This document shows positions 4,418 to 42,329 of a stretch of 42,329 bases of DNA, in pieces. The DNA comes from a virus. The translations under genes were made by a program, and so were the position numbers. Location: positions 1-42,329 of IMG/VR virus record IMGVR_UViG_3300031963_000323; one strand, 5' to 3'. Positions within the stretch are counted from its first letter, which is position 1. Each line of letters begins with the position of its first letter. Below the pieces are notes generated by a model, which saw only the letters and a program-made list of their open reading frames with translations, was not told the origin of the DNA and made no database searches.

Positions 4418-4551
4418 TTACCGAACGCATTCGTTTCCTTATTGATCATCCAACGCTTTCCGCATAGGATGCAAAACAATTCTGTGTGTAGTTTTTGAGA
4501 GAATACTCTATCAATAAAAACTCTACCATTGCATCTCTGACATTTCATCAT
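4363..4551 (-). CDS. Small zinc-ribbon protein
   Basis: The 62-residue protein carries two CxxC knuckles, CQRC at residues 4-7 and CILC at about 27-30. These would form a single zinc ribbon of the kind seen in small phage transcription or replication factors. A basic and polar tail follows, ending in serines. It starts at an ATGATG in which the first ATG overlaps the TGA stop of the metallophosphoesterase gene, so it is coupled to it. The end overlaps the helix-turn-helix gene by 55 nt in another frame. The protein is probably nucleic-acid binding, and the target is unknown. Confidence 0.72.
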   Translation of the reverse strand: MMKCQRCNGRVFIDRVFSQKLHTELFCILCGKRWMINKETNAFGKWLEKTDRDYAKSSSISS

Positions 4552-5348
4552 ACGGAAAACAGCTTCCCATCAACAACACAGGTATAGTCTGGAGAAATAT
4601 GAATCATTTGAATATGAGGATAATCATTTACAATATGGGCAACTGCAAAACCCTTTTGCCAATCATGGTGCTGGGTATACTTCATGCCGTCACTCTTTTC
4701 ATCGCACATGTGTCCAATTTCATATCCACGAAGAGTTTCTCCCTCACCATTATTTCTAAGTTCATATGTTACCATATGTGAAGCAATTCTGTGAGAGTGG
4801 CCACGAATTAATGATACCTGCATATCTTCCATATCTTTTCTTGCAGATCCAGTAGCGGCAATTGATAGTCCATGATGTACGTGAATGTCACCAAATCTCC
4901 GCTTAGGCAACTCGTTGTAATATATGTATTCATACCCCAGAGAATCTAATGACCACAACGCCTCTGGCGTCACTTCATTAATATAGTCTGGAAGCTTTGC
5001 GTCGATATAATTAAATATACGAACATCATGATTACCAAGTGCTGAGAATAGTTGAGCATCTGGAAGCATGTCACGAGTCTTAGTATAAAAATCTCTTGCA
5101 CCTTTTGCCTCGTGTCGCATCATAGGCACAATTAAATCTTTGCTGTCTGTTTTATGAAGGTTCAAAAACTCTGCTGAGCGACCCTCTGTATACTTGCTAT
5201 AGCAAGCTTGATCATCTGTATCGCCAAGGTAATCCACAACATCTGGCTTAAACCACTTCATGACTTTAAACCATAGCTCAATGGCCTTATCATCCTGATA
5301 TGGGAACTGCTGATCGGACGATAGCATCCATTTCAAATCGTTTGACAT
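4548..5348 (-). CDS. Calcineurin-like metallophosphoesterase
   Basis: The 266-residue enzyme has the metallophosphoesterase motif series with a two-metal site: D12 in SSDQQ, GD at 42-43 (LGDTDD), GNHD at 105-108, HHG at 158-160 and GHSH at 183-186. The usual first motif DxH is DxQ here, which may alter metal binding as in some Mre11-like and cyclic-nucleotide enzymes. Phage members of this family act as exonuclease partners or general phosphatases. The location at the head of the replication operon suggests a nucleic-acid role. The frame is open to an ATG at 5375, but that lies inside a terminator hairpin. The ATG at 5348 has AAGGAAAA in front and is taken as the start. It is the first gene after the promoter at 5402-5429. 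Confidence 0.87.
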   Translation of the reverse strand: MSNDLKWMLSSDQQFPYQDDKAIELWFKVMKWFKPDVVDYLGDTDDQACYSKYTEGRSAEFLNLHKTDSKDLIVPMMRHEAKGARDFYTKTRDMLPDAQLFSALGNHDVRIFNYIDAKLPDYINEVTPEALWSLDSLGYEYIYYNELPKRRFGDIHVHHGLSIAATGSARKDMEDMQVSLIRGHSHRIASHMVTYELRNNGEGETLRGYEIGHMCDEKSDGMKYTQHHDWQKGFAVAHIVNDYPHIQMIHISPDYTCVVDGKLFSV

Positions 5349-9800: not shown

Positions 9801-10088
9801 TTGTTGAACTGGAGGAGCTTCAACTACTGGGTTAACTGGGTCATCTATTGTTCCAGTAGGATTATATGTACTATCTGTTCTAAAGGTATTAAGTCTTATT
9901 TTAGGTATATCGTTACCGCTAATAAATGGTCTATTGCTAGTAGTATCAAATACTTTACGCCATCCGCTAGATGTTTTTACATATGCTTTTCTGATAGCCG
10001 TCCATGTCTGACCACCAGTCTTTACATACATTTTTTTTATTCGGTCCCAGTCGTAGGCACCAACTTTTATATATGACTTACCTGCCAT
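6888..10088 (-). CDS. Giant tail adhesin with Fn3/Ig-like and Listeria-Bacteroides repeat domains
   Basis: The 1066-residue, Ser/Thr-rich protein is nearly all beta structure. An N-terminal anchor with repeated 'YVKT..GW..V' elements (residues 1-47) is followed by a long chain of Ig/fibronectin-III-like domains. The clearest are at about 360-470, 475-570, 680-780 and the last 100 residues (SWDAVSGADTYEVL). At about 885-960 there is one domain with the WNANGGSVSP...TPTRAGYTFLYW...TFYAYW pattern of the Flg_new/Listeria-Bacteroides repeat found in cell-surface proteins. It probably decorates the tail tip or tube and binds host glycans. It starts at ATG 10088 with GGCGGATTAATA in front, immediately after the preceding stop. 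Confidence 0.85.
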   Translation of the reverse strand: MAGKSYIKVGAYDWDRIKKMYVKTGGQTWTAIRKAYVKTSSGWRKVFDTTSNRPFISGNDIPKIRLNTFRTDSTYNPTGTIDDPVNPVVEAPPVQQMGPNYTSPVLGWPYESLGRHLWGYDGTWVSGNGSSMTFTYTWLYNLSGNQNDNTAELNVTSTTGRTDMLTNLSSHLGQSDGDYFDRNFLTFRVSATNSAGTASAESTQVYIVRERPTGTITMLEKDIALTATTMSANFTFSSRWYDKTDLSESYVEWFAVDNLTDALTTSNRVQIEYLSTFPTTGTTVKSATTYHNPTIINKYYIARLTLNNSGTLPAKYLGSVININGFTPKSAFTVQDNKNIKTNQAQDPEPFNTISFIKGFPSSSSQGVIRSTSLSWNASTNATRYQILYEGSNDNVSWTTEQTYLASPYSTTTSNSASWGSPKPSGGYNYYSFMRASIRASNPNSSVFAFSDGGSSSSPVYIYATGTAPTAPSFGTITAGSTTATIPVSISSSTGSNYLYSTLEYMVRRSTESYGSTWSTTTISGSSATISLTNLIPSSTYYVKVRVRNYDDLYGQNETNFPTGVALTPATSTSIVSMSRLNDTTVRAYIGSSGASGPYYQLWWVSSSTAPVGENRYDAASTTSTIMEDYGFSSGTTYYFYVRSSSENLGNTINNGVGTAGTYSEYGPSTGAASYTFASPTGSVSVSPSSGTGGTTTYTASPSISAAPAADISYQWQYFEGGSFGWVALSGATSSTYSPPSNYASIYGTGLRCQIVANNGVGTLTTQSSSVTVNASGVAPSGGSVTLSPSGTQQAGTTITANVSAMSGTATISYQTYIVKKTGSSPTSDTDGTRVASGTGTGNVASHTITDSEASGTPDQFRAFTTGTNGFGSNTVASNTVISTPAVVTQYTISWNANGGSVSPASNTVNSGTSVTAPTPTRAGYTFLYWRDSPNVFSYVYQINPGGSWTVTSNITFYAYWQASATAPSTPTGVTVSGSGLVSWDAVSGADTYEVLNYTDRTSAPTNTTNRLGPYTTTGITGTSLQLSSTQGYAGSNNYARAQVRARNTAGVSTYSAWYPSSTTYV

Positions 10089-10090
10089 TA

Positions 10091-13027
10091 TTAATCCGCC
10101 GTACTAAATATAACGTCACCAATTAGCCCAACATAGGGCCAACGAACATGGTTTATGTTTGTAATGCTTGTTTCTGATGCTCCAGATCTATAAAATGCTC
10201 GTCCAGCAGTAACTCTTCCATCACTAAAAATTTGTAAAACAGCACCCGCTTCTTTGCTACTATTGTACATGCTATGAGTAGCAGTTGTAAATCCTTTAAG
10301 AACAACACCACCAGTAGCATTTGTATTTATAACAACTCCAGTACCGCTTAAACTAATATATGATCCGCCTCCCTGCAATGTGGAATATCCAGATGTTGAC
10401 ATAAATAATGCAGGAGATGTAGTTGCGTTATATCCACTAGATGGCTTAATACTAATTGAGCTTGCTGTAGCAGTACCTGGTGATGAAGCAACAAATGAGT
10501 CTTGAACTTCTCCGTCAGTATTTGTGTCAGATCCATAATATGAAGATGAGCTTATAGCGCTTCCTGCTATAGTATATGTAAAGTTATCATTGTCTATCAA
10601 GAATCCGTTTGTAAAACTAATATGCTGTGAAGCAGCATTTAATGTTATTCCTGCGGAAGATAATGATGTGGCATTAACTGTCCATCCACCAATTTTTCCA
10701 GTACCATCTTTTGCTAATTCAAATCTTGGTGCAGTTACGCCATTTGCATATGCGGCAATTCCGCCTGAGTTAATTAATATTCTATCACCACTCGTTGCGC
10801 TAGCACCGATATAGAATGTTCCAGTAATGTCTAGGTTACCAGTAATAGTTCCAGAATTTGCAAGAATTTTTCCAGTAATTTCTGCATCTGTGGCTATAAG
10901 TTTTCCAGTAGATGCCGCAATTGATGTTGCTCCCACGTTTAAAGATCCACCTGTAATTGTTATATCTGAAGCCGTTACAGCTCCAGCTGGAGTAACAGAA
11001 AACTTTGCAGTTGATGATCCAGCAGAAGTTGGGGATCCTGCCCAAATTGCATATGTTCCAGATGAACTAATTCCAGTGTATGTTCCAGTAGATCCTCTTT
11101 CAAATTTAGACGAATCAATTGTCCATCCAGCAATTTGTCCATATTGTGCGTATATTCCGCCATCAGAAGTATCAAGTCTTAGTTGAACTGAACCCTTTTT
11201 AATTACAAGGCCGCTACTATTTAAAAGGAATCCGTCAGATGCTAAATTTCCAGAAGACAATGTACCCTGATATATAGATGCACCAGATACACCCATTGCA
11301 ATGTTTCCGCCAATTGTTGTTCCGCCAGCAACTCCTAAATCTCCGTCTATTGATAATTTAGTACCGTTCCAAGAAACGTAGTTTGATGAGGCCCCGCCAA
11401 TTTTAAATAAAGCCGATTCTGCAGAATCTATATACCAGTAGTTATTTGCGTTAAATACAAGTCCACGTTTGCCAGTTTCTACTCCATATCCAAACTTAAA
11501 CATTCCTGTGTCACCACTAGAACTAGCTCCGAAATATCCCGTAGTGGTTACGTTTGTACCAATAAATGGTGTTCCAGAAACTGTTAGGTTTGGAGCAATT
11601 GTAGTATATGCAGAAGAAGTATTATTAAACTCATCATATGAAGCTATTCCTATTTCGTATGTAGTGCCTACTGCTAGCCCGCCGAGTCTATACGTTGTTC
11701 CAGTTCCTGGAGAATCGACATAAGAATAATTTTCAAAAGGTGCGGCGGCTTTGTATGGCCTAAATCTAATTCTATATCCTCGAAGAGTTGAATCTGACAC
11801 AGCTGACCATGATAAGCTAAGGAATCCATTGAATCCGATTGATCCAGTACTATCGATCCCCGCCGTTCCAGTGATTGTTGCTGGAGCATTTGGAGCATTA
11901 ACATCTGCAGCAATTGCGTCAATTGGTGTAACTGTTTGTTCAGCAGACCACGATGAAGTAAACCCATCATCAGTTAAAAATTTTATTTTAACAAATCTTT
12001 GTGTGTATACAGTTTTCTTTATAATTGCTGGACTTGATCCGCTAAATACTAAATCAGATTCTGATGGATCACCTGCACCCCAAGTTGTTCCAGATTCATA
12101 AACCTTTGCATAAGAAGCTCCAGTTGGCAACGTCCAAGTTGCGGTGTACCCATTTGTAATTGCAGTTAATGTAAACGATGGCGTCACTCCAGTTAACGGA
12201 TTTGTTTTTGTTCCTACCGTAAATGCTGTTCCAGAGTCACGATTATCTAATGAATCTGCAGAAACAAATAGGCCTGTGAATGATGTGTAGTACTGACCAA
12301 ATGTGTTGTATAGTTCTGTTTGTGTAATTAAAATTGATTGTGATGTTCCAGCGGTGGAGGGAAATTTAGTAAAGTATCCGTCATTAGATCCGTTAGTAAG
12401 CTTAATAATAAACTTCTTAGCATCTGCTGAAACTGTTGCTGTAATTAATATGTTATTTCCTGACCAGACTGCAGTTACAGAACTTGCTGCAGTAGGTGGA
12501 GTTACATCAAGTGCTGCTGCTACTGGGTCTACTGGAGTAACTGCTACTGGATCTGAATATGCGGTATTGCCTGCAATTTTATCTGTAAGTTTTAAGCGAA
12601 CCCATCTTTGAAGAACATCTCCAACTGTTATTGTAATTGGGTTAGATGACGTTACACCAACTTCTTGATAGCCAGTTGTAGGTGCGGTGCTTGACGTAGA
12701 AACTGCCTCTTCAATAATAGCATTATCAAAATTCTTATCTGTTTGCTTAGTATATGAAACCGTATAGCCAAGAGAGGCTGGTGTGACTGTAATAGTAGGC
12801 TTAGTTAATTTTGAAACATAGGAGGCGGTAGTTAAAGTTAATCCATCTGACCACGGACTTACTTTACCATTTGGATACACCCATTGAAAATTAAAAGAAT
12901 ACTGTTGTCCAATTTTTAAATCTACAACAGGTATTGTAAAGTAGTCTTGACCAGTCTTTACCTTTTTGTCTTTATTTAAATCATCTGGGTAATCTTTTGA
13001 AGCACCATCTCCATAATATTTAACCAT
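10091..13027 (-). CDS. Large tail-tip/fibre protein with Fn3 domains and GWTI repeats
   Basis: The 978-residue minor tail protein has an N-terminal half of Fn3-like domains (for example PWSDGLTLTTASYVS, and SLSWSAVSDSTLRGYRIRF near 410). From about residue 560 a repetitive, Gly/Ser-rich beta-helix-like fibre follows. It contains the paired motifs IAGWTIDSS and IGGWTVNAT and short strands such as ATDAEITGKI. Such GWTI repeats are typical of the receptor-proximal part of siphovirus tail-tip proteins. It ends with a compact C-terminal part that may be the receptor-binding tip. ATG 13027 follows the previous stop directly and uses GGAG within that gene's last codons as ribosome binding site. Confidence 0.82.
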   Translation of the reverse strand: MVKYYGDGASKDYPDDLNKDKKVKTGQDYFTIPVVDLKIGQQYSFNFQWVYPNGKVSPWSDGLTLTTASYVSKLTKPTITVTPASLGYTVSYTKQTDKNFDNAIIEEAVSTSSTAPTTGYQEVGVTSSNPITITVGDVLQRWVRLKLTDKIAGNTAYSDPVAVTPVDPVAAALDVTPPTAASSVTAVWSGNNILITATVSADAKKFIIKLTNGSNDGYFTKFPSTAGTSQSILITQTELYNTFGQYYTSFTGLFVSADSLDNRDSGTAFTVGTKTNPLTGVTPSFTLTAITNGYTATWTLPTGASYAKVYESGTTWGAGDPSESDLVFSGSSPAIIKKTVYTQRFVKIKFLTDDGFTSSWSAEQTVTPIDAIAADVNAPNAPATITGTAGIDSTGSIGFNGFLSLSWSAVSDSTLRGYRIRFRPYKAAAPFENYSYVDSPGTGTTYRLGGLAVGTTYEIGIASYDEFNNTSSAYTTIAPNLTVSGTPFIGTNVTTTGYFGASSSGDTGMFKFGYGVETGKRGLVFNANNYWYIDSAESALFKIGGASSNYVSWNGTKLSIDGDLGVAGGTTIGGNIAMGVSGASIYQGTLSSGNLASDGFLLNSSGLVIKKGSVQLRLDTSDGGIYAQYGQIAGWTIDSSKFERGSTGTYTGISSSGTYAIWAGSPTSAGSSTAKFSVTPAGAVTASDITITGGSLNVGATSIAASTGKLIATDAEITGKILANSGTITGNLDITGTFYIGASATSGDRILINSGGIAAYANGVTAPRFELAKDGTGKIGGWTVNATSLSSAGITLNAASQHISFTNGFLIDNDNFTYTIAGSAISSSSYYGSDTNTDGEVQDSFVASSPGTATASSISIKPSSGYNATTSPALFMSTSGYSTLQGGGSYISLSGTGVVINTNATGGVVLKGFTTATHSMYNSSKEAGAVLQIFSDGRVTAGRAFYRSGASETSITNINHVRWPYVGLIGDVIFSTAD

Positions 13028-31661: not shown

Positions 31662-33245
31662 CTAGTCGACTTGTCGTCCGTCGCCCTGAGCATTTCTGCC
31701 TTCCCCAGAAATATCTGGTGAATTTGCAGACCTTTCGGAATCTCTAGTTCTAGTTTGGCCAGCCTGTGCCCTAACTTCTGCCTGGGCCTGTGGCTTTAAT
31801 TCTACAACTTTATCTCCACCTTCAAGTGGGACCATGCCCATTCTAATTCTAATTTCATTAGGGGTAACTACCTGCATTCTTAAATATCTCTCATCGATCT
31901 TAGATTGAGTATCTTCATCGGTTAGGGTCAATTCATTGAATTTAAGTAATAGGGCATCGGTCATTTCCTGAATAATCTTATTTAATTTCTTTTCTAAATT
32001 CATTTGAGCTGGACGACATACTTGCTCTCTAAATGTCTTATCGGCATCTCTTGCCACCGCCAAATTAACTCCTTCTGGAGTTCCAATTTTATTAATTGGT
32101 ACACGGTGAGATAATAGAATTTCATCTCTATTAGATTTACGATACACGTTAAATGAAGACTCTTGAGTTCCTGCCTCAATTGGCTCCATCTTAAATTCAA
32201 CCTTTGAGTCTGGTGAATCTGGTGGAAGAGGGATATATAAAGATCTATGATTCTTGCCTCTTAGTCCAACCTGGAAGAACTCTAGAAGCTTACGCTCTGA
32301 TTCTGTAGATAACTTAGCACCCTTTACAGTGATAATATATCTTGGGACCGCCTTGTTTTCGAAGTAGTCAAGGTTGTACTTGCCAGCGAATTCGTTTCCT
32401 GCCATTGCATTCTGTGATGCAATAATATCTGGGATACCATAATAGTTATTTGTTGGAGTATACTTCTTTAAATGAATAATCTCATTTGGTCTTTCTAGTC
32501 CGCCATCAATCGGATTTGGTGTGTCTTGATCTCCAAAGTTACGGAAATAAACAGCTTTGCCATAAAGCAATTGAATAAAGCCATCACGCAAACGGCGAAC
32601 TCGCATAGTCTTTGCTGGTATATGTCCGATATATCCAATCTTACCTGCTGAGGTTCTACCAATTTCAAGGTAGCCATTACCTGTGGCCTCAACATCTGTG
32701 TAGGCCTTGATTAAAGTTTCAGTAAATGTTTCTTCTTCATTGCATTCCTCTAGCCAATCATATAAATCTTGGCGAAGTCGATTTAGTTTACGACGTGCAC
32801 GTTCCAGTGCTTTATCGTCTGTAATGTTATCAAACGCTTCTTGTGTTTTTCTTGTCTCAACAAAGTCGTGGCCTAAGCCAACGATATTGGAAACTTTAGC
32901 ATTAATTGCTGCATAGTTGTATGGTGAAATTTCATAAATCTGTGAAAGATAATCTAAGTTATATGGTGGCTCAATAAGATCAAACATTGCGTAGCCAGTA
33001 ATAGCTTGTGCAAGGAGGTTCTGTTGTGTTTCTGTTCCGTCAATTCCTTGGAAACGCTTTTGCAAATCTCTGTTCATCTTGCGACGGAATGAAGCGCCTA
33101 ATCCAGACACCTTTGTTAAATCTTCTCCCTGAATTTTAAATGGGTCATTGCTCTTTGATTCCACTGGGGTATTAAATCTCATCCAATCTGCAACATTGGA
33201 AATTGATACTTCTTCTCCGCCTTCATCATCAATAAACTCTATCAT
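31662..33245 (-). CDS. Portal protein
   Basis: The 527-residue protein forms the DNA-entry ring at a capsid vertex. It has the typical portal features: a helical wing (LEPPYNLDYLSQIYEISPY type segment at about 95-115), ETLIKAYTDVEATGNGYLEI, a stem-like IHLKKYTPTNNYYGIPDI and ISAxxNA helix, and LPPDSPDSKVEFKMEPI before the tunnel loop. It resembles PBSX/HK97 family portals. The C-terminus (about 485-527) is low complexity (PQAQAEVRAQAGQTRTRDSE). ATG 33245 follows a GGGGGG-rich ribosome binding site and overlaps the previous gene by 4 nt. It is followed by the protease-scaffold gene, as in HK97-like phages. Confidence 0.93.
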   Translation of the reverse strand: MIEFIDDEGGEEVSISNVADWMRFNTPVESKSNDPFKIQGEDLTKVSGLGASFRRKMNRDLQKRFQGIDGTETQQNLLAQAITGYAMFDLIEPPYNLDYLSQIYEISPYNYAAINAKVSNIVGLGHDFVETRKTQEAFDNITDDKALERARRKLNRLRQDLYDWLEECNEEETFTETLIKAYTDVEATGNGYLEIGRTSAGKIGYIGHIPAKTMRVRRLRDGFIQLLYGKAVYFRNFGDQDTPNPIDGGLERPNEIIHLKKYTPTNNYYGIPDIIASQNAMAGNEFAGKYNLDYFENKAVPRYIITVKGAKLSTESERKLLEFFQVGLRGKNHRSLYIPLPPDSPDSKVEFKMEPIEAGTQESSFNVYRKSNRDEILLSHRVPINKIGTPEGVNLAVARDADKTFREQVCRPAQMNLEKKLNKIIQEMTDALLLKFNELTLTDEDTQSKIDERYLRMQVVTPNEIRIRMGMVPLEGGDKVVELKPQAQAEVRAQAGQTRTRDSERSANSPDISGEGRNAQGDGRQVD

Positions 33246-33589
33246 CTTGTCCCCCCATTTTTAAGAGCCTTCATCTGGTCTTTATATTCACCAATATCCA
33301 AAGGATCTGGTGTGAGTCCCCACTTTAATCTTGTTTGCTGTTCTTCAAATTCTTCGTCGTTGATTTTTCGTTTACCCATAAGAAATTTAGGCCCGCCCTC
33401 ATATATACCGTATGAGCGAACTTCTCTAGCCAAAGCATCGATTCTGGATCTATTTCCTTTTTTGGACGTGATCGAAAGAAAGTTTCCATCATCATCTCCT
33501 ATCCAGCGTCCGTCTGGCATTTCCCAGACATATACTCCAAGAGTTGTTTCGTCCTCATTGAACTTGGCGCCCATTCTTTTAATATCCAT
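33242..33589 (-). CDS. Small conserved head-region protein upstream of portal
   Basis: The 115-residue protein has an N-terminal beta part (ETTLGVYVWEMPDGRWIGDD, GNFLSITSKKGNRSRIDALA) and a helical, charged C-terminus. Short proteins with a 'GVYVWEMPDGRWIGDDDGN' phrase directly before the portal gene are familiar to me from actinophages, without a firm function. It overlaps the portal gene by 4 nt. There is no ribosome binding site; an extended -10 box lies 8 nt before the ATG, so a leaderless transcript is probable and would begin the head operon here. Confidence 0.72.
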   Translation of the reverse strand: MDIKRMGAKFNEDETTLGVYVWEMPDGRWIGDDDGNFLSITSKKGNRSRIDALAREVRSYGIYEGGPKFLMGKRKINDEEFEEQQTRLKWGLTPDPLDIGEYKDQMKALKNGGTR

Positions 33590-33597
33590 AGGTTTTT

Positions 33598-33606
33598 ATT
33601 TTACCA
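33598..33606 (-). promoter_or_regulatory. Extended -10 promoter at the start of the head operon
   Basis: The minus strand reads TGGTAAAAT followed by 8 nt and the ATG at 33589. There is no Shine-Dalgarno sequence, which suggests a leaderless message. A -35-like TGGACT lies 17 nt upstream (33626-33621). The element lies in the only gap between the LamG protein and portal genes. Confidence 0.48.
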
Positions 33607-33631
33607 TTCTTTACTATCTAAGTCCAGCTTT

Positions 33632-33650
33632 TTGTCAAGGTAGGTGACAA
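33632..33650 (-). repeat. Inverted repeat upstream of head operon promoter
   Basis: TTGTCA-N7-TGACAA forms a perfect 6-bp inverted repeat about 25 nt upstream of the -10 box at 33598. It has no following T tract on either strand, so it is more likely an operator than a terminator. Its right arm provides a TTGACA, but no -10 lies at the correct spacing. Confidence 0.45.
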
Positions 33651-33652
33651 AT

Positions 33653-35398
33653 TTATACGCTTTGCACCACAACCCAGTCATTATCATAATATACTGGAGC
33701 TAATTCTGTCATGTCTATGACTGGATCGGTGGTTGAAGAAGACGGTCTTCCACAATATAAATCGAAATGGGTATCTACCATTTCCTCAGTAAGAGATCTA
33801 TTATATATTGCAATATTGTTATATAGATTATCTGGTCCGCCTGAAGTTTCATAATTAAATTGAAGGGATCCAGTTACTGATGCTGAAAATACTAAAACAA
33901 TATGATGTGGCTCTCCTGCCACCAGGAAATTGCTTATATTGGTCTGTGAGGTCTTATCTACCCCATTGACGTAAACCTTGCTTATAGAGGCCTTAGAGAC
34001 CGTTCCAGACCCATTCCAGGCGTACTTGGTGCTGGTTGTTGTATCATAGAATAAAGTATTTGCTCCAGTTGTTTTAGGAGTAAAAAACATCTCTACTGTA
34101 TTTATATCTAATTCAGTATTGATATCAAATCCATATCCTGAAGCAGGCCTAATTCCATTATTATAATGTCTAAGAAGCGGGGAATAATTTAAAGACCCTA
34201 TGGCAAATTGATCATCTGACTCAATATAGCTATTAAAGTTATCGGCATATATTCTAGTCTGGCTATAAAACTTAATTGAGAAATGCGATAGTCTTGGCAA
34301 GAATTTGCTAGCATCTGTAGTAGTCATGGTAATTCTAATATATAGAAGCCCATTTGTATCAAAGCTTCCTTTTTTATATTGTGGAATTGCCTCTCCATTT
34401 ACGCAAGGAAGGTATATTGTTCCGTCTATACTGGTTTCAACTGATATGCCTAATTCATTCCGCCACTCAATTTTAGAGTTTGTGAATCCTGACTCCGTTG
34501 GAACAAATAAAAAGTCATTGATAGTAAAAGACTTCGACTGGGCTGTATCTGTTGGAATAAATCCTATATATTTACCCTTATCATCATAGTATGTATTTGA
34601 TTCTATAAAGCTATCCCATGTAGCATCTACTCCATAGGTATAGCTGAAATCTATTCTATTTGTTCTATCTGAACATGAAAATAATGTTCCTTCTTCTGGG
34701 TTCACTACATGTATTGGCTGTATGTAATAATTGGCATCATTGTAATGTCTTGTAATTGCCGCTGAATTTAATCCATATCGATATACTGCTGGAGCATCTA
34801 CTATAAAAGAATCTTCAGAGTCAGATGTTGGACCTATCTGTAGGTCAAATGCTGTATTTGTAAATTTAAAATTAGGATCTAGAGTTTTAGTTGCAACCTG
34901 AGTTCCGTCAATATATAGAGAAATAGAATTTACTGAATATATACCTACGACATGTATTGTTTTCTTAGTATATGTTACTGCCCACCTAATTTGTTCTGTG
35001 CCTGAAGCCTTAAATACTACATCGCCCTTTTCCCAATATAATCCTATGCCATCTGTTGTATCGGCAAATATTGTTGTTTCTGATGATGACTGAATAGATG
35101 GACTAATCCATACCTCTAAAGTAAAGTCATTATCTGATGAGTATTTGTTTGCAAGTCCATTTGAAACGCTTGATCCATAAAAATCTTTTGATGTTGGTAA
35201 AGTAATATATGCTGTATTAGTTATCCTGGTTCCCGATACCCCGCTTGGAATTAATGGCAACATGTTTGATGCAGGAGAACCAACGTAGGTTCCGTTATTG
35301 CCACATCCAGATGAATCTGCTGCGATAACACCAGAGGACTCATCCAGGGGCCAAAAGCCCACTGGAGAGTCCTTGATGACTTTCAGCTGGTAAGACAT
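33653..35398 (-). CDS. Virion surface protein with two LamG/concanavalin-like domains
   Basis: The 581-residue protein has an N-terminal LamG-type jelly roll (about 10-230). Its typical signature is SPVGFWPLDESSG...ADSSGCGNNGTYVGSP, then DFTLEVWISPS, SISLYIDGTQV and VYRYGLNSAAITRHYNDA. A second copy lies at about 395-565 (NTVEMFFTPKTTGANTLFYD, IYNRSLTEEMVDTHFDL). LamG domains bind sugars and are common on phage heads and fibres. There is no Shine-Dalgarno sequence; a TATAAT lies 7 nt before the ATG, so a leaderless message is likely. Placed between the accessory operon and portal genes, it may decorate the capsid or a fibre. Confidence 0.82.
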   Translation of the reverse strand: MSYQLKVIKDSPVGFWPLDESSGVIAADSSGCGNNGTYVGSPASNMLPLIPSGVSGTRITNTAYITLPTSKDFYGSSVSNGLANKYSSDNDFTLEVWISPSIQSSSETTIFADTTDGIGLYWEKGDVVFKASGTEQIRWAVTYTKKTIHVVGIYSVNSISLYIDGTQVATKTLDPNFKFTNTAFDLQIGPTSDSEDSFIVDAPAVYRYGLNSAAITRHYNDANYYIQPIHVVNPEEGTLFSCSDRTNRIDFSYTYGVDATWDSFIESNTYYDDKGKYIGFIPTDTAQSKSFTINDFLFVPTESGFTNSKIEWRNELGISVETSIDGTIYLPCVNGEAIPQYKKGSFDTNGLLYIRITMTTTDASKFLPRLSHFSIKFYSQTRIYADNFNSYIESDDQFAIGSLNYSPLLRHYNNGIRPASGYGFDINTELDINTVEMFFTPKTTGANTLFYDTTTSTKYAWNGSGTVSKASISKVYVNGVDKTSQTNISNFLVAGEPHHIVLVFSASVTGSLQFNYETSGGPDNLYNNIAIYNRSLTEEMVDTHFDLYCGRPSSSTTDPVIDMTELAPVYYDNDWVVVQSV

Positions 35399-35405
35399 AT
35401 TTTAT

Positions 35406-35411
35406 ATTATA
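35406..35411 (-). promoter_or_regulatory. -10 box for leaderless LamG-protein transcript
   Basis: A perfect TATAAT (35411-35406) lies 7 nt before the ATG at 35398 on the minus strand, preceded by TG without the usual single-base gap. No ribosome binding site and no good -35 are visible. Confidence 0.4.
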
Positions 35412-35416
35412 CAGTA

Positions 35417-35698
35417 TTAGTTATCAGATTGCTTATTTGCTTGGTTAAGAAGGGCTACTACCATTTCAGCTGTTTCTCTAGTAGAAATAGCGCTGGCAAT
35501 ATCTTTTGCTGCCGATCTGATATCCAATAGACTTGCTTGTCTTTGAATCTCAAACTTCTTTGAAACATCCGTAATTACACGAAATGTTCCATTGAGGTCT
35601 TTAACTACAAAAAAGAGGGTCTCAACTTTTTGAGAGTCATCTTCCTTTACTTCATCTTGCGGTGTAGATTCTTCTACGTTTTCCATATTTTCTGTCAT
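35417..35698 (-). CDS. Small acidic phage protein, unknown
   Basis: The 93-residue protein has an acidic N-terminal tail (ENVEESTPQDEVKEDDSQK), a beta part (VETLFFVVKDLNGTFRVITD) and a helical C-terminus (SAAKDIASAISTRETAEMVV, ALLNQANK). It starts at ATG 35698 with AGGAG in front. It is not recognised. Small proteins of this style occur near fibre and head genes in actinobacterial phages. It could be an assembly factor. It lies between the membrane protein that ends the halogenase operon and the LamG protein. Confidence 0.6.
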   Translation of the reverse strand: MTENMENVEESTPQDEVKEDDSQKVETLFFVVKDLNGTFRVITDVSKKFEIQRQASLLDIRSAAKDIASAISTRETAEMVVALLNQANKQSDN

Positions 35699-35706
35699 TT
35701 TTTCTC

Positions 35707-35994
35707 CTAGGCTAAGAAGTGCTTAAGTATCGAGGCCGTCGCCAAGATGCACCATGCTATATTAAACCATATAATTGTTGGCAATGTTTTAATTGTTGAA
35801 GTAACTATCAATGTCATACTTGAAATCAAAGCAAAGATGAATAGCCACCACCATTGTTTACCGAAAAGCAATCCAGGAAAGATAATACTAATCTTTGTTC
35901 CAAATGAGACTGCCTCTATAGTATTTACTTTGTTCCAGTAGGACTTTTGAAAAAATCTTTTACTGACTACTTTAAAATCATTTAACTGCATCAT
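35707..35994 (-). CDS. Small membrane protein at the end of the halogenase operon
   Basis: The 95-residue protein has two or three hydrophobic segments: KISIIFPGLLFG (about 33-44), WWWLFIFALISSMTLIVTST (48-67) and IIWFNIAWCILATASIL (75-91). The N-terminal 30 residues are polar and probably cytoplasmic. Its ATG has GAGG in front, and its start overlaps the end of the second halogenase by 17 nt, so it is co-translated. It might anchor the halogenases, export or import a substrate, or have an unrelated role such as a holin-like pore. No family was recognised and no holin motif is certain. Confidence 0.6.
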   Translation of the reverse strand: MMQLNDFKVVSKRFFQKSYWNKVNTIEAVSFGTKISIIFPGLLFGKQWWWLFIFALISSMTLIVTSTIKTLPTIIWFNIAWCILATASILKHFLA

Positions 35995-37510
35995 GTCTAT
36001 CCTCGATCATTTTTAAAACCTGTTGCCAATTAGCAGAAGTTTGTAATGTTAAGTTTTGCTTTATTTTAAAAATCTCATAATTCTTGTTCTCTTCTTCGGA
36101 ATAAGTATTATTGAACTCTTTTATATAGGGCTCTAAATTAAGTATACCATTTCCCTGCATTACAAACAAGTAGTTTTCTAAGGCAAAAATATTAGTGCCT
36201 TCAAAATCTTTATACTCTAAAATATTATTCTTAGATTTAGACAATATTTGTTTTGTGAAGTCTGGCATTTTGTTATTGATTGTAAAATTTTTCCAAAACT
36301 CTGTGTCATCCCTATTGGTTACATAATGAAGGTAGATAAAATTTAATATTTCTTCTTGATCTGACCTAAATTTAGCATTAAAATTATTTTTGTCTGGTTC
36401 TGTGGCCTTAAGCAGATCTTCTATATTTCCTGGAAGTCTTTTTAAACTTTGAAGGCTTGACAAGATAGAAGTTGCTTCTAGCGGTTCAATGAAAGCTGAA
36501 GATAACCCAACAGCGATGCAGTTTTTAATCCAAACATTTTTAAATGACCCTGGATTAAATTCAAAAAATAATCCCTGCCTTGGAGGCTGAACTTCAAATC
36601 CAAAATACTCTTCGACTTCTTTTTTTGCTTCCTCTAATGTTATATAAGAAGAATCAAACACATATCCACAACCATATCTGCTTTGTATTGGAATCTGCCA
36701 CATCCACCCATACTTCATTGCAACAGCGTTAATATGTGAAGTAACTCCCTTTCCCATCTGCTCGTGAGATAGAAAAAATGGAAAAGCTTTATCTGCTGGT
36801 AAATGCTCTGAGTAACTTTTCCATTCTGAATTATAGTATTTACCAATTAATAGTCTTTTAAATCCGCTGCAATCAAATACAAAATCTGAATGAACGGCAT
36901 TGCTTTTGCAATTTATTTTAACGATTTCTTTATTAGAATTTTCTTCAAATGATATTATTTCGTCATCAATATAAAATATACCACGCTCTTCTATAGCTAT
37001 TTTTTTAAAATATTCTGCGACCAACCTGGCATCAAAATTTAAAGAAAAGTGTGCCAGCCTATCAGAATTTATTGAAAAAGGAAATTTATTATTTTCTGCT
37101 AAATTTGAATTAAAGTCAAACTGGTGCTGTTTATTGTTCTTTGCTATAGAGTAAATTATTGCTCTGGAGTTATACTGAGTTACTGGATCTATAAAAGAGT
37201 TTAGTGTTGATATGGCTAGGTCTTCATCTGCTGCAAATGAGTTGTAATAGTATCCGCCATCTTTATTCCAGTTGCTAAATTTTGCTGAAACTTTAAGGGT
37301 TGCTTCGCAGTTACGAATTAATTCATAAAATGGAATTTTTATAATATCAAGGAAATCTATGAACATTGGGGTGGTGCTTTCTCCAGCTCCCAGTACTCCT
37401 ATCTCTTCGCTTGCAATAACAGTTACCTTAGAATCTGGGTAAATTTGTTTTGCATATAAAGCGGTAATCCATCCAGCGGTTCCTCCGCCAATAATAACTA
37501 TATTACTCAT
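35978..37510 (-). CDS. FAD-dependent halogenase, tryptophan-halogenase family (second copy)
   Basis: The 510-residue enzyme adds a halogen to an electron-rich substrate through a flavin-generated hypohalous acid and a lysine haloamine. The FAD-binding GGGTAGW (8-14) is intact. The catalytic lysine is K73, in CEATLKVSAKF, aligned with PrnA K79. The WxWxIP motif is at 269-274 (WMWQIP) and the catalytic glutamate is E342 in FIEPLEA. All are present, so activity is predicted. The longer frame to 37576 includes 22 residues overlapping the previous gene; ATG 37510 has AGGAAG in front and overlaps the previous TAA by 8 nt. It is slightly shorter than its partner at 38186-39814 and clearly divergent from it. 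Substrate unknown. No flavin reductase gene is nearby, so host FADH2 is needed. Confidence 0.92.
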   Translation of the reverse strand: MSNIVIIGGGTAGWITALYAKQIYPDSKVTVIASEEIGVLGAGESTTPMFIDFLDIIKIPFYELIRNCEATLKVSAKFSNWNKDGGYYYNSFAADEDLAISTLNSFIDPVTQYNSRAIIYSIAKNNKQHQFDFNSNLAENNKFPFSINSDRLAHFSLNFDARLVAEYFKKIAIEERGIFYIDDEIISFEENSNKEIVKINCKSNAVHSDFVFDCSGFKRLLIGKYYNSEWKSYSEHLPADKAFPFFLSHEQMGKGVTSHINAVAMKYGWMWQIPIQSRYGCGYVFDSSYITLEEAKKEVEEYFGFEVQPPRQGLFFEFNPGSFKNVWIKNCIAVGLSSAFIEPLEATSILSSLQSLKRLPGNIEDLLKATEPDKNNFNAKFRSDQEEILNFIYLHYVTNRDDTEFWKNFTINNKMPDFTKQILSKSKNNILEYKDFEGTNIFALENYLFVMQGNGILNLEPYIKEFNNTYSEEENKNYEIFKIKQNLTLQTSANWQQVLKMIEDRHDAVK

Positions 37511-38189
37511 AAGACTTCCTATTCCATTTAAAGTTTTTATACCATCCAAATGCTCTTCTTGTTGTATCGAATTCATTTTTAATTGCTATGTCTGTTATTG
37601 ATTTATCATGTTCAGATTGCCAGTTTTCTCTTTTAAATGGCATAACTTGATATATGGGAGTACCTACTGGGATAATGCCCTCAAAGCCTGATTTTAAAAA
37701 GAATGGCAGATTGCCTCTTGCCATTGTCATGTCAGAGTCAACAATACCAGAAAGTGTAGTAAATGGAAGATCAAACCTATTGTGTGGGTGAGATATTAAA
37801 ATACTATAACCCTTTGGGGTCTGGATATTAAACAATGACTTCCATGCGTAATGATCTTCATCATGACCTGCTGGTGTGGGCAATGTTTTATTTATTCTAG
37901 GTCTTTTTTCAATTGGATCTGGTCCAAGTCTCCACTGTAGCTTTGGCCCAAGTTCCGTCTGCTCTACAATAATATCTGTCCATAAAAAGGCAGTGTACCC
38001 AGAAGTCATTGCGTCTAAAAATGGCATACATAGCTTTAGCCCATGATTACTTGTGCCATTTCCTATTTTCATATTTCCGCCTACAAACCTTTCAGCATCT
38101 CTATACCATTCTGGTATATGCTTTTTAGCAGCATTTGGAATATCTATTAGGTCATTTCCTTGAATTGAAAATTTTATTTTTTTACTCAT
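37503..38189 (-). CDS. Halogenase-associated protein, unknown (type B)
   Basis: The 228-residue protein lies between the two halogenases, overlapping both (4 and 8 nt), with AAGGATAAG as ribosome binding site. It is rich in aromatic and basic residues, with ISHPHNRFDLPF, TLSGIVDSDMT and a C-terminal EGIIPVGTPIYQVMPFKREN. From memory, small proteins with these phrases occur in phage and bacterial clusters together with flavin halogenases (possibly DUF6065), without a known function. It looks like a single beta-barrel or double-psi type domain. It may bind or deliver substrate, or be a halogenated substrate itself. The relationship to the protein at 39811-40512 is weak but suggestive. Confidence 0.7.
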   Translation of the reverse strand: MSKKIKFSIQGNDLIDIPNAAKKHIPEWYRDAERFVGGNMKIGNGTSNHGLKLCMPFLDAMTSGYTAFLWTDIIVEQTELGPKLQWRLGPDPIEKRPRINKTLPTPAGHDEDHYAWKSLFNIQTPKGYSILISHPHNRFDLPFTTLSGIVDSDMTMARGNLPFFLKSGFEGIIPVGTPIYQVMPFKRENWQSEHDKSITDIAIKNEFDTTRRAFGWYKNFKWNRKSYE

Positions 38190-39814
38190 ATCTTATCCTT
38201 ATATAAAGTATTTGATAAGTGCTCATATACTGTAGGAAGCTCTTTAGAAAGCTCTGACCATTTATTTTTATTTTCAGACCAAATTTGATCTAGATAGTTT
38301 ATTCTTCCTTGTACATCAATTCCTAGAGAAGCCTGATTAGTATAAACTTCTGTTGCAGAAATAATAGGATAATTTAATCCAGTTGCAACACAACTTAGTC
38401 CCGATGCTGGACCTCCGTATTCATTTCTAGATCCCCACTTATTTATATAAAATTTTCTTGCTACTAGATCTAGCGGCGTGGATGCTATGGTATACTCACT
38501 ATTTATTAATTCTGGGTAATAGGTTTTTCCAGTAGCATTTTTCCAATACTCTGTATCATCCCTTAAAGAAAGAGCATAGTGTAGTGTTACAAAATCTGCA
38601 AATAAATTAAACTGCTCAAATGTTACATTGTTGTATGCATCTCTGTCCCACTGTGAAACCTTTTTTCGCTCTAAAGTGGCACACAAATATTCCAAGAACT
38701 TATGAACTGTAAAAAGTCCATTACTTTCTAGCGGTTCAATGAAGCCAGCGGCTAATCCTATTGCTACTACATTTTTAACCCATGTTCTTTTATGAATTCC
38801 AATTTTAAATTTAACATCTTTAAAGCTCATAGAATCTACGTCTCTATCTGGATTATATGCACTCACATAGTCTGTTTTTAAATAATTTTTAAATTGATTT
38901 AAGGCATCTTCTGGCGAAATAAACTTATCACTATACACATATCCAGTACCTATTCTCTTCCATGAAGGAATATTCCACACCCAACCATTTTCTATAGCTG
39001 TACATGTAGTATATGGCTCCATCTCTTTATTTTTATCAATATAAGGTATTTGCGTAGCCCATGCTCTATTGTTTGGAATTTTATCAGAATAATCAATCCA
39101 CTCTTCCTGTAAAGCTTTTCCAATTAATATAGAGTGAAAGCCAGTACAATCTATGAAAAGGTCTGAATATACCTTTTCACCACTATCTAATAAAAGATAG
39201 TCAATACCTGAATCGGACAATGACCAATCTTTTACTGTATTTGTTTTAAGGATGACACCTTTTGGTAAACAGAAGTTTTCTCTTAACCATGCTCCAAACA
39301 TGCTTGCATCAAAATGTAACGCCGATCCAACACTGGAATCAAATAATACGGTTCCGTCTTTATCTTTAAAAATATTAGTAAATTTATTTTCAGGCAGTAG
39401 GTGTGAGACTGGGTAGAATGTATCTGTATAGTCTTCTACAGGAGTTTCTGGATTAAACATCTTTTTTACATACCAGTCTTCTGTTTCTCCCATACCCTTT
39501 ATTGAATCTACAATTGGTCTAGTAAATGGGTAATGAAATGATCCACTTCCCTTTTCATAAAAATCTCTAAATTTAATACTTAATTTATATATTGCATCGC
39601 ATTCCGCCATAAATTTTTCTTTAGGCAGTCCAATTAACCTAAGCCAGTCATTCATAAAGCCAAGGGTGCTCTCGCCGACACCTACTGTTGGAGTATCTGG
39701 ACTTTCAATTACAATAACTTCTTTTTCAGGAAATACAGACTTAATTGTTGCAGCAGCCATCCATCCTGCGCTACCTCCACCAACAACTACAACTTTATTA
39801 ACTATTAAATTCAT
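38186..39814 (-). CDS. FAD-dependent halogenase, tryptophan-halogenase family (first copy)
   Basis: The 542-residue enzyme has the complete flavin halogenase set: GGGSAGW at 12-18, catalytic K77 in AIYKLSIKF (PrnA K79 position), the WxWxIP motif at 279-284 (WVWNIP), GTGYVYSDKFIS, and catalytic E361 in FIEPLESNGLF. Length fits the family (510-540). PrnA-like enzymes chlorinate or brominate indoles, and the cyanophage enzyme VirX1 prefers iodide; the substrate here cannot be read from sequence. ATG 39814 overlaps the previous gene by 4 nt (ATGA) with AAGGCAAT in front. It differs from the second halogenase throughout the substrate-binding middle (about 85-200), suggesting a different substrate or site. 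It needs reduced FAD, presumably from the host. Confidence 0.93.
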   Translation of the reverse strand: MNLIVNKVVVVGGGSAGWMAAATIKSVFPEKEVIVIESPDTPTVGVGESTLGFMNDWLRLIGLPKEKFMAECDAIYKLSIKFRDFYEKGSGSFHYPFTRPIVDSIKGMGETEDWYVKKMFNPETPVEDYTDTFYPVSHLLPENKFTNIFKDKDGTVLFDSSVGSALHFDASMFGAWLRENFCLPKGVILKTNTVKDWSLSDSGIDYLLLDSGEKVYSDLFIDCTGFHSILIGKALQEEWIDYSDKIPNNRAWATQIPYIDKNKEMEPYTTCTAIENGWVWNIPSWKRIGTGYVYSDKFISPEDALNQFKNYLKTDYVSAYNPDRDVDSMSFKDVKFKIGIHKRTWVKNVVAIGLAAGFIEPLESNGLFTVHKFLEYLCATLERKKVSQWDRDAYNNVTFEQFNLFADFVTLHYALSLRDDTEYWKNATGKTYYPELINSEYTIASTPLDLVARKFYINKWGSRNEYGGPASGLSCVATGLNYPIISATEVYTNQASLGIDVQGRINYLDQIWSENKNKWSELSKELPTVYEHLSNTLYKDKI

Positions 39815-40512
39815 ATTATTGCCTTTTTAATTTCCTTTATAGCTATTTTATTAATTCGTTGTGAATTAAATTTTTCATAAAGATCTTGGAGAGAAGTATT
39901 CTTTTTATACCTTTTTATTTCTAATGAACTTTTTACAATATCTTTTAGTGTATCAGTAAAATAAAATTCTATAAAATTAATTTTTTTATCTGTGTCAAAC
40001 TTTACATAGAATAGGTCGTCCCCCTTATCCAAGGTAAATCTTCCATTATCGTATATAGAGTATGATGGGATTAATGGTCTAAACCAATTTGAAATATTAA
40101 ATTGTCCTGGTATTAAATGAGCATTATTTAAATTTTTATTTGATAGAAATGGTTGACTTAATGTTATATTTATATCATTTTCTGAAAATAATGATAATGG
40201 AACCAAATAATCAAGTATGACATTTTTATCTGAATACTCTCTTACAGATATATAATCTTCTAGATTATTATCTAACCAATCTATAGTTTTATTGCTATTT
40301 AATTTTATATCTAGGGTCATAGGGTTAGTAAATGCAAATGTATTCTTTAATAAATTTGTAACAGCTGGGCAGCCTAGCCAATTTACATCATCCTGTACAG
40401 GATTTCCTATTTTTTTATGTAAAGAAGACAATACTGGGCTTATAGAAATATCCATCATATAATTCATGTTTTCGGTAAACATGTTATATTTTGACCAGTA
40501 TACATTTATCAT
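39811..40512 (-). CDS. Halogenase-associated protein, unknown (type A), leaderless
   Basis: The 233-residue protein is first in the halogenase operon. Its features include LGCPAVTNLLKNTFAFTNPM near residue 47, a SNWFRPLIPSYSIYDNGRFT segment, and a long basic C-terminal helix ending NKIAIKEIKKAII. A similar order, (C)P..........F..P or T.., then P....F....G...Y.V.F, is seen in the protein at 37503-38189, so the two may be remote relatives. I do not recognise its function; a substrate-binding or scaffold role for the halogenase is possible. There is no ribosome binding site; the ATG lies 6 nt after a -10 box, so the mRNA is probably leaderless. It overlaps the first halogenase by 4 nt. Confidence 0.72.
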   Translation of the reverse strand: MINVYWSKYNMFTENMNYMMDISISPVLSSLHKKIGNPVQDDVNWLGCPAVTNLLKNTFAFTNPMTLDIKLNSNKTIDWLDNNLEDYISVREYSDKNVILDYLVPLSLFSENDINITLSQPFLSNKNLNNAHLIPGQFNISNWFRPLIPSYSIYDNGRFTLDKGDDLFYVKFDTDKKINFIEFYFTDTLKDIVKSSLEIKRYKKNTSLQDLYEKFNSQRINKIAIKEIKKAII

Positions 40513-40518
40513 ATAATC

Positions 40519-40548
40519 AGTATATCATTTATATGTGATATAAGTCAA
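40519..40548 (-). promoter_or_regulatory. Promoter of the halogenase operon (leaderless)
   Basis: On the minus strand -35 TTGACT (40548-40543) and -10 TATACT (40524-40519) are spaced by 18 nt, with a TGA extension before the -10. The ATG at 40512 follows the -10 by only 6 nt, so transcription starts at or beside it. The -35 overlaps the TGA stop of the preceding gene. It is among the best promoter matches here. Confidence 0.65.
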
Positions 40549-40883
40549 TGGGTATGTGAGTGTCCCCACTCAAATTTATTTACCCCTGGCCCTTCATTTA
40601 CATTTCCAATAAATCTTAATGTATCTTTTATAACATTTTCAATAACCTTATATGATACTTCGATCATATTTGCAATATGAGGAAGGTTTAAATGCTTAAA
40701 TTCTTCTTTAATTACAATAGGAGACTTTTCAAATAGATCAATATTATTTTCAGAAAAAATAGAAATTACATCTTTATATGTAATAAAATTATTTTTATCT
40801 TGCCATGCATCTAAATACATTTCAAGGGCAGAGTCTTTTGCTAGAGCAACCAATCTTGGGGCTAATATGTTATTATTTATCAT
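40545..40883 (-). CDS. Small unknown protein ending in His cluster
   Basis: The 112-residue protein is mainly helical (LAPRLVALAKDSALEMYLDA, MIEVSYKVIENVIKDTLRFI) and ends EWGHSHTH. The terminal histidines could bind a metal. No family is recognised. It overlaps the fibre-assembly-like gene by 11 nt, and its stop lies within the -35 of the halogenase operon promoter. It may belong to the tail-fibre group rather than to the halogenases, since the promoter comes after it. The ribosome binding site is poor (AGCGG), so coupling is likely. Confidence 0.6.
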   Translation of the reverse strand: MINNNILAPRLVALAKDSALEMYLDAWQDKNNFITYKDVISIFSENNIDLFEKSPIVIKEEFKHLNLPHIANMIEVSYKVIENVIKDTLRFIGNVNEGPGVNKFEWGHSHTH

Positions 40884-41301
40884 CCGCTGGCTTTTTCAAT
40901 AAAGGAAGTCCAGATTCTGGAACTGGTTGTCCCAATAAATTATCTATCACACTTTCTGGCGGAAGCTTGACTAAAAGCAATTCAATTTCATCTGTAGTCA
41001 GGCCCAACTTTAACAAAATCTTTGATTTTTCTTCTAAAGCTTCTTTTAATTCTTCTTTTAGTTTAGCAACATCTTCTTCAGAAATTCTTTCAATTTCTGG
41101 CTCTGTATCAACATCTTGAATTATCCAAGAATTTTTTTCTTTATTAAAATAACAAATATGAGTTTCTGGATTAAATTCTGGAGCAGGTATTTCTGTAGAA
41201 TATGCTGGCATTAACCATACACCTGGCTCTAGCGGAGATTCATCTACGCTAGATTCTCCGACAAACTCCATGGTAATAGGGTTGTAAGTATAAGCAATCA
41301 T
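40873..41301 (-). CDS. Tail fibre assembly-like protein
   Basis: The 142-residue protein has an N-terminal segment of the type YTYNPITMEFVGES...DESPLEPGVWLMPAYST...PAPEF, followed by NSWIIQDVD. This 'EFxGES..ADxSPLExGVWLxPAxxT' pattern marks small proteins next to tail fibres (tail fibre assembly/chaperone-like). A long acidic helix (VAKLKEELKEALEEKSKILL) and a proline-rich C-terminus follow. It lies directly downstream of the tail-collar fibre gene, the expected place for a fibre chaperone or a fibre-tip protein. The start codon ATG 41301 has only a weak purine-rich AGAAAAGAAAA site. Confidence 0.68.
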   Translation of the reverse strand: MIAYTYNPITMEFVGESSVDESPLEPGVWLMPAYSTEIPAPEFNPETHICYFNKEKNSWIIQDVDTEPEIERISEEDVAKLKEELKEALEEKSKILLKLGLTTDEIELLLVKLPPESVIDNLLGQPVPESGLPLLKKPADDK

Positions 41302-41323
41302 AGATTTTCTTTTCTATTATTAA

Positions 41324-41345
41324 TTAAGTTTAGATTAAAACTTAA
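41324..41345. repeat. Perfect inverted repeat at the end of the tail-collar gene
   Basis: TTAAGTTT-N6-AAACTTAA is a perfect 8-6-8 repeat that includes the stop codon of the collar-fibre gene. It is AT-only apart from one GC pair per arm and has no T tract, so as a terminator it would be weak. It might be an RNA-stability hairpin or a protein-binding site. Confidence 0.4.
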
Positions 41346-41853
41346 TGCAAAAACGCATTGCTACGTTTCTAGGTCTTAGCTGATCTCCTTCAGCAACTCC
41401 GCCAGAAACATCGATGCTTCTTTCTCCAGCAGAATCTCCAAATGGTTCCCATCTGAATTCATTTGATGTTCCCCATCCGAAGTGTGATCCACCCTGAACC
41501 TGAGCGTGACCCCATCCGTAAAGGTACCAAGATCTGGTCTGGTGACGGTGTCTAGGCATCATTGCTGCTTGTGCAGAAGCAAATCCTCTACCACTGTCTG
41601 CTCCACGACCATCATCAAAACCACGGATAAATTCTCCACGAAGATCTGGGACGTTAAATGTAGTTGAGCCATCACCTCCACCAAAGTTTCCTCCAATTGC
41701 TGCGAACAAATCTGCGTACAGAGTACGACTGATTGCTGCACCATTGCAGTGTATGTATCCATTTGGTGTGCTATTTGCTCCCCAGGCAATTACTGTTCCT
41801 GCTGGAACAATGCCGCCCAATGAGTTGTTTAATAAGTTGGTTAACGTTGCCAT
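41335..41853 (-). CDS. Tail fibre protein with tail-collar domain
   Basis: The 172-residue protein contains a classical phage tail collar domain: IVPAGTVIAWGANSTPNGYI, then CNGAAISRTLYADLFAAIGG, FNVPDLRGEFIRGFDDGRG, and a C-terminal LRPRNVAMRFCIKF. This is the family of short phage fibre tips where a trimer binds the receptor, with metal-binding residues in the middle part (MPRHRHQT...GWGHAQVQGGSHFG). The His cluster (RHRH, GGSH) is similar to the metal-binding knitted domain of T4 gp37-like tips. The start is the ATG 41853 that shares one base with the previous stop (TAATG); six further upstream codons lie in the previous gene. Confidence 0.9.
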   Translation of the reverse strand: MATLTNLLNNSLGGIVPAGTVIAWGANSTPNGYIHCNGAAISRTLYADLFAAIGGNFGGGDGSTTFNVPDLRGEFIRGFDDGRGADSGRGFASAQAAMMPRHRHQTRSWYLYGWGHAQVQGGSHFGWGTSNEFRWEPFGDSAGERSIDVSGGVAEGDQLRPRNVAMRFCIKF

Positions 41854-42329
41854 TATGCTATGATTCTCCATCCGTAAGTTGTATTGCTAAACATTAATCT
41901 GACAGAAGCATTGTTTATGTTAAACGGCATATCTTCTGCAAGGCCCTGGATTAGCTGTCCATTTCGGGCAATATTTACTGGCGTATTGAATGCTGTACCA
42001 GCGATATCTGTTAGAACTATTTCATCTCCAAGTGCTGGTGATGCTGGCAGTGTCAGTGTTAGTCCTGAAGCTGGAACTATAAAGTAATTTCCTGTGCTTT
42101 GTACGCCGCTTGTTCTTAGATTTCCACGAGCAACCAGTGTTTGAGAAGTGGTGATAATCGTTGGTCTCATATCAACATATCTCTTAGTTGCTACTGCAAG
42201 ATCTACTCCAGCAGTTGGGTCTTGAGACACTTGAACTGTAGTTCCACCAGTAATTGTTACTGTGTTAGCATTTAGAGATATTGTTCCATTAAGTGTTGAA
42301 TCTGCTGCACCAATTGTTACGTTAGTTGT
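41853..42329 (-). CDS. Tail fibre protein, C-terminal part (runs off right edge)
   Basis: The reading frame is open from the right edge of the window to the stop at 41853, so the gene begins beyond the window; GTG 42230 is not its start. The visible 158 residues begin with a short repeat region of 'NVTIGAADSTLNGTISLNAN' type, then DPTAGVDLAVATKRYVD. This 'DPTxxxDLATKxYVD' junction is typical of tail fibres, where the coiled or beta-helical shaft meets a globular tip. After it come beta strands (GLTLTLPASPALGDEIVLTD) and a C-terminal TTYGWRIIA. It is probably a receptor-binding fibre, followed by the collar-domain tip gene. Confidence 0.82.
   Translation of the reverse strand, partial: TTNVTIGAADSTLNGTISLNANTVTITGGTTVQVSQDPTAGVDLAVATKRYVDMRPTIITTSQTLVARGNLRTSGVQSTGNYFIVPASGLTLTLPASPALGDEIVLTDIAGTAFNTPVNIARNGQLIQGLAEDMPFNINNASVRLMFSNTTYGWRIIA

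Follow-up and report, generated by a model that had tools for sequence, protein, structure and literature searches.

The window analysed here, the complete 42,329-base IMG/VR record of a freshwater virus that infects bacteria (G+C 37%), carries five overlapping genes that we propose, with a probability of about 0.45, to form a conserved phage halogenation module in which a flavin-dependent halogenase would work with a small membrane partner, TM95, on an aromatic substrate. The proposal is drawn from comparison of sequences and predicted structures.

The late genes of the virus lie on the minus strand in the order tail collar, tail-fibre-assembly-like protein and orf112, then the module, then orf93, LamG protein, portal, head protease, tape measure and minor tail proteins. 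The nearest relatives of the head protease are found in Streptomyces phages (45% identity), and the virus was therefore placed near the tailed actinophages. The module and its immediate context are as follows.

41335-41871, minus strand: tail collar (PF07484, E 1.2e-22), upstream context
40873-41301, minus strand: tail-fibre-assembly-like protein (phrog_105, E 1.3e-8), upstream context
40545-40883, minus strand: orf112, upstream context (the tail-fibre context as a whole spans 40545-41871)
40519-40548, minus strand: candidate sigma-70-type operon promoter, TTGACT-18-TATACT with TG extension; well placed, not significant as a pattern
39811-40512, minus strand: orf233, module gene 1; phrog_17480 (PHROG E 2.5e-23), distantly DUF6065-like; overlaps HalA by 4 nt
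38186-39814, minus strand: HalA, flavin-dependent halogenase of the VirX1-like deep clade; PF04820, 327 bits; K77, WVWNIP at 278-283, E363, ESNG
37503-38189, minus strand: orf228, distant DUF6065 relative, phrog_7084; predicted dUTPase-like fold
35978-37510, minus strand: HalB, flavin-dependent halogenase of the second deep clade, 510 aa; PF04820, 307 bits; K73, WMWQIP at 269-274, E345, EATS
35707-35994, minus strand: TM95, small membrane protein with three predicted helices, 95 aa; overlaps HalB by 17 nt
35417-35698, minus strand: orf93, downstream context (as a whole 31662-35698)
33653-35398, minus strand: LamG protein (PF13385, E 1.6e-12), downstream context
33242-33589, minus strand: orf115, downstream context
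31662-33245, minus strand: portal (phrog_12, E 1.4e-54), downstream context

All five module ORFs are present and intact, with gene-to-gene overlaps of 4, 4, 8 and 17 nt in order, which bears out the preliminary description of five joined genes ending in a small membrane protein. The longest ORF for HalB begins at 37576, and the most likely start, judged from the AGGAAG Shine-Dalgarno sequence that precedes it, is the ATG at 37510; the sister contig L174 has an identical 8-nt overlap and a HalB that is also 510 aa long. A single promoter had also been claimed for the operon. The candidate is well placed, but promoter-like sites numbered 39 against 39.3 in shuffled sequence, and a claim to one significant promoter was rejected because the scan count is indistinguishable from shuffles. 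Between 33000 and 42329 of the window, terminator-like hairpins numbered 12 against 5.2 in shuffles (sd 2.4), an excess of about twofold. Elsewhere in the window, two large proteins of 1066 and 978 aa that had no PHROG match are encoded at 6888-13027, downstream of the minor tail genes; these are possible tail-tip or receptor-binding proteins.

HalA and HalB are both complete PF04820 proteins whose full-length profile scores (327 and 307 bits; cut-off 21) lie far beyond chance, so that the earlier reading of two intact flavin halogenases stands. The flavin motif (GGGSAGW/GGGTAGW), the WxWxIP motif and, by alignment with K79 of RebH, the catalytic lysines K77 and K73 were confirmed. The catalytic glutamates, previously named as E361 and E342, were reassigned to E363 in HalA and E345 in HalB, since it is the second glutamate of EPLE that aligns with E357 of RebH. 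Among 88 representative phage halogenases, the lysine was kept in 87 and the catalytic glutamate in 83. In a FastTree phylogeny HalA and HalB fall in two deeply separated clades, one with ESNG or ESTG at the halide loop and the other mostly with EATS, as in HalB. The solved relative nearest to HalA is VirX1 (PDB 6qgm; E 3.3e-95 over 534 residues), which belongs to the same deep clade, is matched over the whole length and shares the lysine, glutamate and WxWxIP. The two have nevertheless diverged: the Syn10 copy is 36% identical, HalA has ESNG where VirX1 and RebH have ESTG, and the HalA operon includes a membrane-protein partner. VirX1 is neither the best solved relative of HalB nor a member of its clade; the best are RebH variants (E 6.4e-59). 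HalB aligns with RebH over about 400 residues and has the same catalytic lysine and glutamate as the bacterial tryptophan halogenases RebH and PrnA, but differs from them in its EATS loop, in an unlike C-terminal part and in having no pathway genes nearby.

The loop difference raises the possibility that these proteins, or at least HalB, have lost the ability to halogenate and work as flavin monooxygenases, hydroxylating an aromatic or peptidyl group. Within the clade of HalB, 23 of 39 rows lack ExxG at this position, and NCBIfam profiles gave weak similarity to the flavoproteins LodB, GoxB and QhpG. The lysine, glutamate and WxWxIP that define halogenases are, however, retained by nearly every row in either clade, and because halide contacts in the ExxG loop are largely main-chain, the change in HalB may be neutral. 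Loss of halogenation was considered improbable.

Paired halogenases are not new to phages, contrary to what the preliminary description had supposed: overlapping pairs followed by an orf228 homologue are already present in the cyanophages Syn9 (gp41-gp42), Syn10 and S-RIM44, and a table of 2010 lists a cyanomyovirus genome with two copies of prnA (PMC3037559). Translated CPUG_00131 of Syn10 matches the VirX1 sequence, so the crystallised enzyme VirX1 is encoded by the second of two tandem halogenase genes, after which comes an orf228 relative. The arrangements CPUG_00132-CPUG_00131(VirX1)-CPUG_00130 in Syn10 and gp41-gp42-gp43 in Syn9 resemble the window in consisting of an overlapping pair with an orf228-family gene, located after tail-fibre and fibre-assembly genes. 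They differ in that 2OG oxygenases follow the pair, that the two Syn9 enzymes share a deep clade, and that TM95 has no match in any isolate phage. What is distinctive in the window is the pairing of one enzyme from each deep clade. The Actinomycetia phage DSL-LC01 has an actinophage halogenase beside collagen-like structural genes and a glycosyltransferase; this halogenase is single and distant (27% identical to HalB), and no TM95 was annotated or found by search.

The preliminary description passed over TM95, the gene whose presence predicts a halogenase. To assess this linkage, 80 loci were gathered by TM95 sequence alone, forming 53 clusters at 90% identity. In this collection, which under-samples distant relatives of TM95 and the halogenases because it was made with peptide patterns from the query, and in which many contigs are fragments, a halogenase was present in 70 of the 80 loci and adjacent to TM95 in 56. 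By cluster, a halogenase was in the locus in 48 of 53 and adjacent in 31, and 50 clusters had one when the rest of the record was counted. The two genes stood in the order halogenase-then-TM95 on one strand in 46 adjacent pairs, mostly overlapping by 4-17 nt. By contrast, only 4 of 80 loci selected by orf228 contained a halogenase. As for the five clusters whose loci lacked one, for L224/L226 and L244/L246 the record of a member encodes a halogenase outside the locus; in L197 TM95 lies at a contig end, and L217 and L241 are fragments of 7.9 kb and 26 kb. When loci were instead selected by HalA, TM95 was present in 14 of 80; its absence from the other 66 indicates that halogenases do their chemistry without requiring it, and that dependence runs from TM95 to the halogenase. 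The halogenase tree shows at least 16 changes in linkage to TM95, which occurs in both deep clades (FastTree; gains and losses are indistinguishable). Co-transfer alone could account for the adjacency. One further record (G033, 188 kb; locus L258) carries four PF04820 halogenases as two tandem pairs together with a TM95 relative.

Relatives of TM95 were found, within the searches made, solely in uncultivated viruses. Capture of a host gene was rejected, as pattern searches of 84,980 species genomes, and searches of isolate phages and plasmids, returned no relative. The AlphaFold2 model (pLDDT 86.7) has an N-terminal helix and three long helices, and no convincing match was obtained in Pfam, PDB sequences or PDB folds (best fold E 1.5). 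The size and topology of TM95 suggested a SemiSWEET/PnuC-like transporter, for riboflavin for example, but neither Foldseek nor Pfam supported this; the comparison with SemiSWEET 4qnc was not significant (E 4.1, TM-score 0.48/0.56) and there was no PDB sequence match. From these sequence surveys TM95 is judged to be a new part, a virus-only halogenase partner that rarely occurs without a halogenase. Across 49 sequences 21 residues are invariant, including Y19, W20, W49 and W81, and Glu27, Lys34 and Asn78, whose conservation inside predicted helices suggests a role beyond simple anchoring. TM95 might be the protein substrate of the halogenase, with the invariant Y19, W20, W49 and W81 halogenated, or an obligate channel that delivers halide or substrate. 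We regard this as rather unlikely; if true, it would be a new kind of phage membrane system built on halogenation.

The order orf233-halogenase-orf228-halogenase-TM95 recurs in seven distinct contigs, with halogenase amino-acid identities down to 0.53. Median dN/dS was 0.37 for orf233, 0.20 for HalA, 0.17 for orf228, 0.125 for HalB and 0.105 for TM95, absolute values that are rough because many synonymous distances are large. A check for frameshifts, lost active sites and missing synteny encountered none of these. The comparisons support reading the module as a coupled operon that is conserved and evolves under purifying selection. In the sister phage L199, a NodU/TobZ-type carbamoyltransferase (3130-4569) is inserted in the module between halogenase and TM95.

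The position of the module, between the tail collar and fibre-assembly genes on one side and the LamG and portal genes on the other, is as first described, and had led to the suggestion of surface or fibre modification, in which the halogenases would have fibre or LamG proteins as substrates, at their aromatic residues or glycans, alongside nearby hydroxylases and transferases. Families found near phage halogenases and TM95 included 2OG-Fe(II) oxygenases, epimerases, a carbamoyltransferase, sulfotransferases, a glycosyltransferase and collagen, as counted on cluster representatives rather than against a random background. Such neighbours fit a modification cassette and at first favour a surface target, as do the tail-fibre genes ahead of the cyanophage pairs and the grouping of collagen genes, halogenase and glycosyltransferase in DSL-LC01. 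Against this, the halogenase-TM95 pair directly follows an ORF of 640-700 aa in ten loci, an ORF that is a ribonucleotide reductase in L208, and TM95 adjoins a DNA primase gene in L224. These contexts indicate that the halogenase-TM95 unit is not tied to tail genes; although the tail-gene location is real, they weaken the argument that it points to the target. A substrate that is a virion protein in the cytoplasm would also leave the coupled membrane protein unexplained, and modification of the virion is considered unlikely. In L208 the arrangement is a class II ribonucleotide reductase (2407-4437), then a halogenase, then TM95, extending to 6282.

The enzymes might alternatively halogenate a small molecule in auxiliary metabolism, such as free tryptophan or indole, a host signal or a competitor-directed compound, as suggested for cyanophage prnA. 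VirX1 is reported to accept many aromatic substrates, with a preference of I > Br > Cl (PMC8407142), and an antibiotic-protection role has been published as a speculation (PMC2984593). The module, however, contains no biosynthetic genes, and VirX1 has so open an active site that a small amino acid is hard to see as its dedicated substrate; neither TM95 nor the DUF6065-related proteins would be explained. A small-molecule role of this kind was therefore also judged doubtful.

The two small proteins that had been described as unknowns can now be placed in or near the domain-of-unknown-function family DUF6065; no mention of DUF6065 was found in the literature searched. Among 54 relatives of orf228, 33 match DUF6065 (PF19541; best 2.8e-34), whereas orf228 itself was not matched by PF19541 even at an E-value limit of 10, so that its relation to DUF6065 runs only through these relatives. 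Comparison of family profiles (hhalign) linked orf233 to orf228 with a probability of 94% (E 1.5e-7); orf233, whose invariant features are CP, GxF and WxR, is thus probably a distant relative of the orf228 family. Relatives of orf228 or orf233 were present in 37 of 80 TM95 loci against 12 of 80 HalA-selected loci, which speaks for the module. None of 80 loci with bacterial orf228/DUF6065 relatives, mostly from Rhizobiales, had a halogenase within 6 kb. On this count, and on that of 4 in 80 for the phage loci, DUF6065 was rejected as a halogenase-specific partner; since its relatives usually have no halogenase neighbour, it appears to be a general protein that is sometimes recruited into halogenase modules. 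Stand-alone orf228-like DUF6065 relatives (L305-L384), whose dUTPase-like fold is assigned by their relation to orf228, are frequent in Rhizobiales genomes.

The model of orf228 (AlphaFold2, pLDDT 92) has dUTPase/dCTP deaminase as its nearest Foldseek matches (E 2e-4; TM-score about 0.6 by target and 0.3-0.4 by query). Relatives of orf228 and orf233 in HF2 (L008), S-RIM4 (L011) and CRP-6 (L007) lie near ribonucleotide reductase, MazG or transaldolase genes with no adjacent halogenase, in line with a dUTPase-like fold. When the related records were searched with the dUTPase profile (PF00692), two DUF6065-like proteins beside halogenase genes scored below the cut-off. Together with the ribonucleotide-reductase-type gene ahead of halogenase-TM95 in ten loci, these observations could be read as nucleotide or DNA modification, in which a halogenated base is made and the dUTPase-like protein handles the nucleotide. 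In orf228, however, HPHNRFD replaces the phosphate-binding motif 2 (RSS/RSG) and the glycine-rich C-terminal motif 5 is absent, and with these motifs missing it is not expected to be an active dUTPase. DUF6065 moreover stands alone in Rhizobiales, and we are aware of no flavin halogenase that acts on nucleobases. We consider nucleotide modification very improbable.

The preferred interpretation is therefore the halogenase-TM95 partnership, with action at the membrane favoured because it best explains the coupled membrane protein. HalA and HalB would be FAD-dependent halogenases from two anciently separated clades, for which FADH2 (from a host reductase), O2 and halide would yield HOX that is passed to the active-site lysine, and an electron-rich aromatic substrate would then be halogenated. 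This chemistry is assumed from established knowledge of halogenases and from the activity of VirX1 with iodide, bromide and chloride (PMC8407142). General annotation of the genes around the module brought up no flavin reductase. TM95, probably made in step with the halogenase through the overlapping genes, would most likely form a complex with it and hold it at the inner membrane. A location there may give access to a membrane-embedded or membrane-synthesised aromatic compound, to protein Trp or Tyr, or to a supply of halide or flavin. The proteins encoded by orf228 and orf233 would be optional helpers that may bind or present the substrate.

What phage halogenases do in nature has been a question ever since cyanophages were seen to carry them. 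Work on VirX1 has so far treated it as a biocatalyst on its own; its gene belongs to a module of several genes that also encodes another halogenase and a member of the DUF6065 family. Because TM95 predicts a halogenase nearly everywhere it occurs, the question of role now becomes testable as the action of this pair at the membrane.
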